Source of the DNA: a bacterium
Lineage (GTDB): Bacteria > Patescibacteriota > Patescibacteriia > UBA9934 > GWF2-40-263
Length of the DNA: 35,297 bases
Reading direction: 5' to 3'
Assembly: GCA_020051955.1 (NCBI GenBank)
Contig: JAGVQB010000025.1
Location: forward strand, 1 to 35,297
Part shown: one piece after another, positions 6,835 to 13,200 of the stretch
Position numbering within the stretch: the stretch's first letter is position 1
How the letters are laid out: every line of letters begins with the position of its first letter
Translations under genes and position numbers: made by a program
Notes under the pieces: generated by a model
Databases searched by the model: none
The model's input: the letters and a program-made list of their open reading frames with translations, nothing else
Told to the model about the DNA's origin: nothing

Positions 6835-7824
6835 TCAGCGGGGGAAAATTTTCAAGGCGGGGAATGGCAATACGTCTTCGATTGAAGATCGGCCGGTTAA
6901 AATCATGTGCAGGCGATCCACTCCAAGAGCGTTGCCAAATGTCGGAGAACGCAAGGATGGTAACAGACACAACAGTTCCTCGTCAATCGGGAATACGCGC
7001 TTGCCGAGACGCTGGCGCTCGTTGGCTTCTTCCTCAAATCGAGCGCGTTGTTCAACCGCGTCGGTCAATTCAGTAAACCCATTACACAACTCAACTCCGT
7101 CAATATAAAGTTCGAACCGCTGTCCATATTTTCCATCCGCGGTCATGGCAGAAAGAGCGGCTTGATGACGTGGATAGTCGTACACAAAAAGCGAGCGGCC
7201 TGCGAACGTCGGTTCGACCTTGGTGAGAAACAGGCGGTAAAAAAGATCGGATTCTGTGTCAGGAGGATCATCTTTGATTCCATTCGCGCGACACGACCTT
7301 CGCAGATCACCCTCTTGAGCAATATCAAGATCCAGACCAACACAATCAAGAAACAAGTCGCGCACTCGAATTCGATCGACCTTAGAGGCAACCCCCCTTG
7401 ATCCCCTCTTGGGAAGGGGAGAAATATTCTGAGCAACATAACTCACCAACTCCCAGGTCTCATCCATGCACGCTTGATAATCCGCTCCCTGCCGATACCA
7501 CTCAAGCATAGTGAACTCGGGATTGTGCGCGCCACCAAATGATTCCTCGTTACGAAAAACTTTTGTGATTGTAAAAATCTTTTGCATACCAAGCCCAAGA
7601 AGTTTTTTCATTGAATACTCCGGGCTGGTTATTAAACCCGCGCTGTGAGCCTTGCCGTCTGGCTCGCGCACGACCGTCTCAAACGGAAAAAGATTCGGCT
7701 CCATTCCAGGGGAGCGCACAACCAACGGTGTCTCAACCTCAAGATACCCGCGCTCGCGAAAAAACGAACGTATAGAATCATTGACGACTTGACGCTCAAG
7801 AATCACTTGTTCGATTTCATTCAT
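6835..7824 (-). CDS. epmA: EpmA/GenX/PoxA-like lysyl-tRNA synthetase paralogue (putative EF-P lysine ligase)
   Basis: Class II core without anticodon-binding domain: 'FFRERGYLEVETPLVVRSPGMEPNLFPFET', 'LITSPEYSMKKLLGLGMQKIFTITKVFRNEESFGGAHNPEFTMLEWYR', 'ELCNGFTELTDAVEQRARFE', 'GNALGVDRLHMILTG'. Confidence 0.9.
   Translation of the reverse strand: MNEIEQVILERQVVNDSIRSFFRERGYLEVETPLVVRSPGMEPNLFPFETVVREPDGKAHSAGLITSPEYSMKKLLGLGMQKIFTITKVFRNEESFGGAHNPEFTMLEWYRQGADYQACMDETWELVSYVAQNISPLPKRGSRGVASKVDRIRVRDLFLDCVGLDLDIAQEGDLRRSCRANGIKDDPPDTESDLFYRLFLTKVEPTFAGRSLFVYDYPRHQAALSAMTADGKYGQRFELYIDGVELCNGFTELTDAVEQRARFEEEANERQRLGKRVFPIDEELLCLLPSLRSPTFGNALGVDRLHMILTGRSSIEDVLPFPALKIFPR
7387..7421 (-). repeat. 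Palindromic element inside the epmA coding sequence (family P, copy 1)
   Basis: Minus strand TCTCCCCTTCCCAAGAGGGGATCAAGGGGGGTTGCC; encodes 'SPLPKRGSRGVA'; matches copies at 10035 and 12493. Confidence 0.8.
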
Positions 7825-9196: not shown

Positions 9197-10389
9197 ATGA
9201 ATTTCTTTATTCTAGGTTCACACGACGAGTTATCAATTGCGGAAATAAAAGCAGTCCTGAAAGACACGCTTGTTGTCGTCGCACAATCGCGGCAGGCACT
9301 GCTAACACAACCTCTTGATCCCAACCTAGGCGAACTTCAAGAACGCTTGGCAGGTGTTGTAAAAATCGGTTATGTAATCGGGGAAATGCCACGGTGGTCT
9401 CAAGACGAAGCCGCCGAGCTTGTGGCTGGGTTCGCGTTGGAGGCGGCTGGAAAAAATAAAATAAGTTTTGGATTGAGTGTTTATGATTTAGATAATCCAA
9501 AACGAACTCATGAACTTGAAAAAGATTTAGACAGCGTTGGTCTGCAAGTGAAACGTCTCCTAAAAGAAGGCACGCGACCAGTTCGCTACGTAAAAGCAAA
9601 AGAGCCTCGCCTTTCCTCTGCTGTTGTGGAAACCAACGGACTTTTATCTTCAGGTGGCGAGTATGTTTTTCTGTGCGCGCAGGGCAGAACCTATGTTGGA
9701 AAAACAGAAACCATTCAAGACTTCCGCGCCTGGGAGGATCGCGACTTTGGCAGACCGGCGCGCAACGCAAAGGCAGGAATGCTTCCGCCAAAACTCGCTC
9801 GCTTGATGATAAACCTCGCAGGAGTCGAACCTGCAAACGCGACACTTCTTGATCCCTTCTGCGGCTCTGGCACGATTCTGATGGAAGGAATCCTAATGGG
9901 ATTCAAGAACCTTATCGGAAGCGACATATCCAACAAAGCAATCGATGATACAACCCAAAACCTTTCTTGGCTGATAAGTCATCTTCATCTCGCACAACCA
10001 AACCTTTCTATCTTTTCTTGTGACGCCTCTTCAATCCCCCCCTTACCAAGGGGGGGTTAGGGGGGGTTGCCAAATCTGTTGACGCGCTTGTTACCGAAGT
10101 CTATCTTGGCTCCCCTCGCGTGCGTCCGGTTTATGACCACGAGATCATCACAATCGAAAAAGAATTGCTACCGACCTACGAAGCGTCTTTCCGCAATCTC
10201 AAAAAACTTCTCAAGCCTTCCGCGCGCGCGGTCGTGGCTTTTCCAGCGTTCAAAAAAGAAGATAACACTTGGCACCGTCTCCCACTGAAAGAACTCCTCA
10301 CAAAACTCGGTTACAATGTCACCCGACAATTTCTCTATCACCGCGCTGACCAATTAGTGGCACGAGACATTGTCGTATTATCATTATGA
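9197..10389 (+). pseudogene. THUMP/TRM11-like RNA (guanine-N2) methyltransferase, reading frame broken inside a palindromic element
   Basis: ORF 9197-10060 has 'ATLLDPFCGSGTILMEGILMGFKNLIGSDIS' and ends at a TAG in the repeat; the -1 frame continues 'GGVAKSVDALVTEVYLGSPRVRPVYDHEIITIEKELLPTYEASFRNLKKLLKP...' to 10389. Confidence 0.8.
10035..10071 (+). repeat. Palindromic element inside the methyltransferase gene (family P, copy 2)
   Basis: TCCCCCCCTTACCAAGGGGGGGTTAGGGGGGGTTGCC; CCCCCCCTT/AAGGGGGGG 9-bp stem, 3-nt loop. Confidence 0.85.
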
Positions 10390-12090: not shown

Positions 12091-13200
12091 TTACACGCTA
12101 AATCTAAAATGACACACGTCCCCGTCAACCATCACATACTCCTTCCCCTCCAATCGTAACTTCCCCGTGTCGCGCGCGCCGACCTCGCCATTGCACGCGA
12201 CAAAATCGTCATACCCAATCACCTCGGCTCGAATAAAACCTTTTTCAAAATCAGTGTGAATGACCCCTGCGGCTTGCGGAGCTTTTGTCCCGCGCGTAAT
12301 CGTCCACGCGCGGGTTTCTTTTTCACCGGCAGTAAAAAACGTGATCAGATTCAACAGCTCGTAACACTTCGCTATCAAACGATCTAGACCGGATTGCGAG
12401 AGACCGAGCTCGCGCAGAAAAACGACCTGATCTTCTGGCGACATTTCTATGATCTCAGATTCGAGCTTGACGCTGATAGGAATCGACACAGCGGCAACCC
12501 CCTCTATCTCCCCCTCCACCTTCGCCATGGCTTCGGTGGACAGGTTGGAAAGGGGGAGGATGGTTCGTTCCTCCCCGACGTTCATCACATACAACACTGG
12601 CTTACGAGTCAATAACGAAATATCCCCGATCATCTTCTCCTCATCTTCCGTAAGCACAACAGTGTTTGCCATCTTCCCCGCCTGCAGTGCGGCAAAAATC
12701 TTCGCGAGCGCAGACTCCTCTGTCTCAAGATCTTTTGCGCGCCCGGCTTTCATTTTTGCGCGAACGCCATCCAGCCGTTTTTCAACTGTCCCAACATCAG
12801 CCATCGCAAGTTCCAATTCAATTATCTCAATGTCGCGTCTTGGATCAACCTTGCCCTCAACGTGCACAACGTTCTCATCCTCAAACGCTCGCACAACGTG
12901 CACTATCATATCCACCTCGCGGATGTTCGCGAGAAACTTGTTACCTAGCCCCTCACCTTTGTGCGCGCCTTTCACAAGACCCGCGATGTCAACAAACTCA
13001 ATGGCTGTTGGGATTCTTTTTTGCGACTTACAAATCTCCACAAGCTTATCAATGCGCGCGTCAGGCACTTCCACCACACCAACGTTTGGCTCGATTGTGC
13101 AAAACGGAAAGTTCGCGCAGTCAACCTGTTTTTTTGTGAGTGTCTTGAAGAGTGTGGACTTGCCAACGTTTGGGAGTCCAACGATACCGACTTGGAGCAT
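12091..13200 (-). CDS. ychF: Ribosome-binding ATPase YchF (Obg/OLA1 family)
   Basis: 'MLQVGIVGLPNVGKSTLFKTLTKKQVDCANFPFCTIEPNVGVVEVPD', 'FVDIAGLVKGAHKGEGLGNKFL', 'TFFTAGEKETRAWTI..GTKAPQAAGVIHTDFEKGFIRAEVI'. Confidence 0.97.
   Translation of the reverse strand: MLQVGIVGLPNVGKSTLFKTLTKKQVDCANFPFCTIEPNVGVVEVPDARIDKLVEICKSQKRIPTAIEFVDIAGLVKGAHKGEGLGNKFLANIREVDMIVHVVRAFEDENVVHVEGKVDPRRDIEIIELELAMADVGTVEKRLDGVRAKMKAGRAKDLETEESALAKIFAALQAGKMANTVVLTEDEEKMIGDISLLTRKPVLYVMNVGEERTILPLSNLSTEAMAKVEGEIEGVAAVSIPISVKLESEIIEMSPEDQVVFLRELGLSQSGLDRLIAKCYELLNLITFFTAGEKETRAWTITRGTKAPQAAGVIHTDFEKGFIRAEVIGYDDFVACNGEVGARDTGKLRLEGKEYVMVDGDVCHFRFSV
12493..12558 (-). repeat. Palindromic element inside ychF (family P, copy 3) carrying a second palindrome in its interior
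   Basis: Minus strand TCCCCCTTTCCAACCTG-TCCACCGAAGCCATGGCGAAGGTGGA-GGGGGAGATAGAGGGGGTTGCC; nested palindrome at 12515-12540. Confidence 0.8.

Follow-up and report, generated by a model that had tools for sequence, protein, structure and literature searches.

The palindrome found inside the epmA gene of this tiny uncultured bacterium, whose Patescibacteria genome measures roughly 1 Mb, belongs to a dispersed family of short hairpin elements, here called family P, which is best explained (with a probability of about 0.85) as a non-autonomous mobile palindrome of the REP/RPE-like kind that is tolerated in frame within genes as an added loop. The epmA observation is confirmed as real and bigger than the preliminary description had supposed. 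According to the proposed mechanism, a hairpin unit of 39 or 69 nt, both multiples of three, would insert into intergenic DNA and genes without visible target duplication, after which selection would spare only those intragenic copies that are in frame, free of stop codons and placed in a surface loop or flexible tail. The host product would then bear a Pro/Gly-rich loop of 13 (or 23) residues and still work; that the peptide is made and that the host proteins function are points we infer.

In the window, meaning the whole 35,297-nucleotide stretch of DNA that was analyzed, the epmA element spans positions 7387-7425 (GGCAACCCCCCTTGATCCCCTCTTGGGAAGGGGAGAAAT on the plus strand), a length of 39 nt or 13 codons, and its minus-strand reading in EpmA is ISPLPKRGSRGVA. 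The minus strand at 7386-7421 is TCTCCCCTTCCCAAGAGGGGATCAAGGGGGGTTGCC, coding for SPLPKRGSRGVA within EpmA, and the epmA frame is open across the element; the original claim of an in-frame palindrome encoding an inserted peptide therefore stands, with the full unit now set at 39 nt. In the GGCAACCCCCCTTNATCCCCCCTTGGGAAGGGGGGAGAT orientation the unit consists of a 9-bp stem with a 3-nt loop, and a further C-run and a GGCAAC end lie 5' of the stem; in the model R1 structure, plus-strand positions 7402-7410 pair with 7414-7422 around a loop at 7411-7413, with mismatches present in the stem of this copy. The host gene (6835-7824, minus strand) encodes a 329 aa EF-P lysine aminoacylase (EpmA, also GenX) matching NCBIfam TIGR00462 with E=2.6e-92, its nearest structures are 3g1z and 3a5z, and its identity is firm. 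An AlphaFold2 model made with 28 relatives (mean pLDDT 88) places the insert, at residues about 134-147, in a coil between a helix (116-134) and a strand (150-153) with pLDDT about 75; the position of the insert on a loop, which the preliminary description had suggested modeling, is thus borne out as a prediction.

Two further copies are observed in the window. For matches of this kind a shuffled-sequence control gave an expectation of 0.00 there, against two found. The copy in ychF (12091-13200, minus strand; redox-regulated ATPase YchF, NCBIfam TIGR00092, E=7.2e-141, supported by orthologue alignment) is a 69-nt long form at 12493-12561 on the plus strand with a 30-nt inner palindrome in its loop; the gene is open across it, and its minus-strand reading in YchF is ILPLSNLSTEAMAKVEGEIEGVA. 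The inner palindrome motif CCTTCGCCATGGCTTCGG (12519-12536, plus strand, 1 mismatch) was considered as a second, independent family in this genome and rejected, as all 8 of its genome copies lie within family P elements, which makes it a component of the long form. The other copy is a 39-nt C-type element at 10033-10071 on the minus strand, inside a TIGR01177-type methyltransferase gene (UPF0020 domain; 9197-10389, plus strand) whose two ORF halves join within the element. Its C-run is one base shorter than that of the C-type copy of contig C10, so the two halves lie in different frames in the assembly, which may reflect a genuine mutation by slippage or a fault in the assembly. The earlier claim that two more conserved genes of the window hold in-frame copies thus stands for ychF, while the methyltransferase copy is frameshifted as assembled.

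The family extends well beyond the window. By blastn it is found at 15 places in the genome, and the covariance-model search that had been proposed for finding further copies, with a model made from 12 distinct copies, yields 44 places at E<0.01 as well as more in relatives. Subtypes are distinguishable, with A having the CCCCCCTT stem, B the CCCCTCCTT stem, C the sequence CCCCCCCTTGGTAA, and D the CTCGGGCAGG loop with a conserved ACTCCC ahead of it; a further one is the 69-nt long form, which has the 30-nt inner palindrome in its loop. Inverted dimers occur as well, with a spacer of 15 nt at three loci and 33 nt at one. No matching family is present in Rfam.

Comparison of copies indicates, at the level of sequence, that the hairpin stem is maintained via compensatory changes. 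Among 83 distinct copies, drawn from this genome and its relatives, 97.4% of 743 stem cells are paired versus 89.9% in shuffles, and double-sided changes number 74 versus 22.6, a value reached by none of 500 shuffles; when the partner is shifted by one column, pairing falls to 76-85%. As the 83-copy alignment was fitted to the model, a smaller unfitted set offers more independent support, and here 97.2% of cells are paired with 8 double changes, again unmatched by any of 500 shuffles.

A count of copies inside and outside ORFs, also proposed at the outset, shows that 27 of the 44 (about 60%) lie within long ORFs running through the element, with the rest being intergenic or at gene starts, several of them as inverted dimers. 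The hosts, most of them identified through NCBIfam and Pfam (three lack an NCBIfam match), are mainly housekeeping genes: DinB, SecA, LeuS, MnmA, EpmA, DnaK, LepA, SMC, MurI, ProS, ValS, YchF, Sua5/TsaC, UvrA, DnaX, DNA polymerase I (PolA), a RimK-family ligase and three glycosyltransferases. Some hosts carry more than one copy; the two SecA copies share a contig, where about 2 kb separates them, and are probably in one gene, and an O-antigen ligase-like gene (G000:C10:500-4500, G000 being the present genome) has three copies, with two in a similar gene of the relative G040.

Intragenic copies use five of the six reading frames, with the SPLPKGGxRGVA frame strongly favored (16 of 27; chi-square p=4e-7), and the reading of the LeuS insert includes SPLPKGGSRGVAG. 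The commonest A-type sequence contains a TAA in one of its six frames. The TAA base is found in none of the four A-type copies read in the ISPLPKGGxRGVA frame, compared to 9 of the 10 other A-type copies (Fisher p=0.005, in a small sample). Because the copies in the TAA-capable frame all lack the TAA, the family P peptide is probably translated; such avoidance is what production of the peptide would predict, whereas skipping of the segment would not.

Alignment of orthologues is consistent with the elements being additions to conserved proteins. For EpmA, a clean gap in relatives had been anticipated; none of the 29 aligned relatives has the epmA element and the shortest, G027, has exactly 13 fewer residues between fixed anchors, but the length of this loop varies in all relatives. 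In G022 this EpmA loop is occupied by a related but independent palindrome, whose inner palindrome, CCTGCCTGCCGGCAGGCAGG, differs and codes for PACRQAG. For 12 further host genes, a joined query was run against eight relatives and the sequences were aligned, also at the DNA level; the orthologues mostly lack the element segment. Relative to orthologues the proteins have exactly 13 extra residues in ProS, ValS and SMC, where the insert sits a few residues ahead of the Walker A motif, as well as 15 in LepA, 12 in Sua5, 10 in MurI, about 15 in MnmA and up to 13 in EpmA. Simple insertion fails to explain every site, because in YchF and LeuS the element substitutes part of the native loop and the net gain is less than the element length. 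In a separate observation, the Walker A motif of the G013 SMC (G013:C50:878-3226) is itself interrupted by an intein-like insertion, about 450 residues long (GPNGSGK^CLHGDS ... IIVHN^SNLADAIRWVLGE).

At least seven of the loops are occupied in relatives too. The LeuS loop holds an A-type copy in G000, a B-type copy in G003 and G013, and a D-type copy in G040; the YchF loop is occupied in G002 and G040, the DinB and MnmA loops in G040, the SMC loop in G003 and the EpmA loop in G022. The DnaK tail is occupied in G040 as well, and its copies in G000 and G040 are probably the same insertion, while in G067, a member of another family, the DnaX linker that is occupied in the present genome also contains a copy. 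Such sharing is compatible with tolerant loops receiving insertions more than once and equally with an old copy being replaced in place. In G001 and G013, of two genera, the YchF loop is filled by a different repeat with an inserted peptide of the FKAPSGASVAGGDKAPVN type, perhaps another coding-invading repeat family.

Across genomes the distribution is patchy. Family P matches at E<0.01 occur in 55 of 97 relatives (the present genome included), with 0 to 63 copies and no even pattern, and matches at E<1e-4 in 16 of 294 genomes drawn evenly from the phylum. When 85,488 species genomes, from which the present genome or its close relatives may be absent, were scanned for the exact pattern, only two genomes matched, both of them Patescibacteria and one named Ca. 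Uhrbacteria. Family P is absent from the phage and plasmid records searched.

How the copies spread can be approached from their ends. No target duplication is seen at the element flanks, as judged, like the element ends, from filled sites; MITEs, for comparison, have such a duplication together with terminal inverted repeats. In 24 copies (paired ones dropped) the flanks weakly favor T, A and T at positions -4, -1 and +1, respectively. As the flanks in G040 and G067 favor other bases, some of these preferred bases may be element ends. A hairpin without target duplication is typical of single-strand HUH/Y1 systems. Copying by trans-acting single-strand (HUH/Y1-type) transposition is put forward as a tentative and somewhat doubtful proposal, for which the support consists of the hairpin form, the lack of a visible target duplication and the weak flank preference. 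Two Y1 transposase genes exist in the genome (G000:C15:9008-9331 and C2:16790-17119) with inverted ends of their own, of the GGGGTCAGGTCTT type, resembling the TIRYT type (PMC3733652). These were rejected as the cognate transposase, their own ends (GGGGTCAGG type) being unrelated to family P, and a linked RAYT/Y1 was likewise rejected as the cognate enzyme, with 31 Y1 loci holding one weak family P match; copy number showed no correlation with Y1 count (Spearman 0.17, p=0.10).

Spread or updating of the elements by gene conversion or template switching between hairpins, instead of transposition, would have an occupied loop rewritten by the current subtype of each species. This would account for the three subtypes that fill the LeuS loop in different species and the similar sharing in YchF, MnmA and DinB, as well as for the replacement of native residues in YchF and LeuS. 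It is nevertheless rather unlikely: the copies in ProS, ValS, Sua5, LepA and MurI are private to G000 with clean neighbors, implying that new sites are also gained, and a tract of 39 nt offers little homology for conversion. Ordinary loop length variation or an assembly artefact might be argued from the variable EpmA loop and from the frameshift in the homopolymer at 10033-10071, but this can practically be dismissed, given that this 39-nt DNA turns up at about 44 sites unrelated to one another, as well as in independent genomes, and that the chance expectation in the window is 0.00. Chance or a native loop is ruled out by copy number and shuffles.

The elements could instead be a short functional motif selected in place in genes, for example one that serves DNA uptake or forms a hairpin with a regulatory role. 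Uptake sequences also occur within genes in preferred frames, and some family P copies lie just upstream of genes, yet the motif reading is very improbable given only about 44 copies per Mb of a 39-nt sequence, its patchy presence within one family, whose species have 0 to 63 copies, and the same-gene orthologues that mostly lack it. It is also hard to believe that the segment (e.g. SPLPKGGSRGVA) goes untranslated, as a bypassed or spliced-out hairpin like those of Magnusiomyces mitochondria. The hairpin is strong and such bypassed elements exist (mentioned in PMC6649704); however, family P copies are multiples of three, are open in frame, make use of five of the six frames and steer clear of the variant with an in-frame stop, none of which bypassed DNA needs.

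A mobile palindrome tolerated in frame has known parallels. Rickettsia palindromic elements (RPEs) are palindromic repeats found in frame in many unrelated protein genes (PMC10969869, PMC6649704, describing Ogata et al. 2000, 2002), and family P shares with them this placement, the existence of several families, copies that vary between species, and a reduced genome. It differs in phylum and in its length of 39 or 69 nt compared to ~150 bp (RPE-1 type); unlike in RPE-4 and RPE-6, which have a CGTC end, no more than 5 of 44 copies have CGTC/GACG close to an end, and these are scattered. Family P is not known to be related to RPEs in sequence. Intragenic REPs are known outside Rickettsia in several species, with uvrA, polA and tRNA synthetase genes among the targets and loops or linkers proposed as the tolerant sites (PMC3733652). 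Family P resembles the GTAG/CGTC REPs, 20-40 nt palindromes (PMC3733652), in its 39-nt length, its 44 copies, its monomers and inverted dimers, and its presence in uvrA, polA and tRNA synthetase genes; it has no GTAG or CGTC tag at its ends and no linked RAYT, and about 60% of its copies are intragenic whereas those REPs are mostly intergenic. The inverted pairs, which at three loci have the same 15-nt spacer, recall REPINs mobilized by RAYTs (PMC3116915), but family P occurs mostly as single units, also in genes, and a RAYT flanked by the unit was not found. Coding palindromes in Nematomorpha mitochondria (PMC6649704) are likewise inverted repeats retained in coding sequence, although these are long perfect repeats in mitochondrial genes and family P is a dispersed short family.

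Family P thus acts like RPEs and intragenic REPs, yet fits the strict definition of neither, and membership in either is not claimed, given the mismatches in size, end tags and preference for extragenic sites. The suggestion of a separate, coding-invading repeat family with RPE-like behavior is supported by the absence of GTAG/CGTC ends and is qualified by the intragenic REPs already known (PMC3733652) and by the replacement of native residues in YchF and LeuS. In the literature that was searched, no report of palindromes in Patescibacteria genes was found. Protein-coding palindromes were previously seen as a Rickettsia peculiarity, along with intragenic REPs in some other bacteria; family P is a separate family in another phylum. 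Going further, these may be distinct and still active micro-mobile hairpins of Patescibacteria, their unit length selected as a multiple of three for life in essential genes, with a few permissive loops serving as docking sites reinvaded by different hairpin families across species, although the odds of this wider picture are judged to fall a little short of even. About 20 conserved genes with inserts, each with relatives lacking it, form a large set, provided by nature, of insertions that conserved proteins tolerate; the sites mark loops of LeuS, YchF, SMC, MnmA or EpmA that accept foreign peptides, and the set makes it testable how selfish DNA gives proteins new loops.
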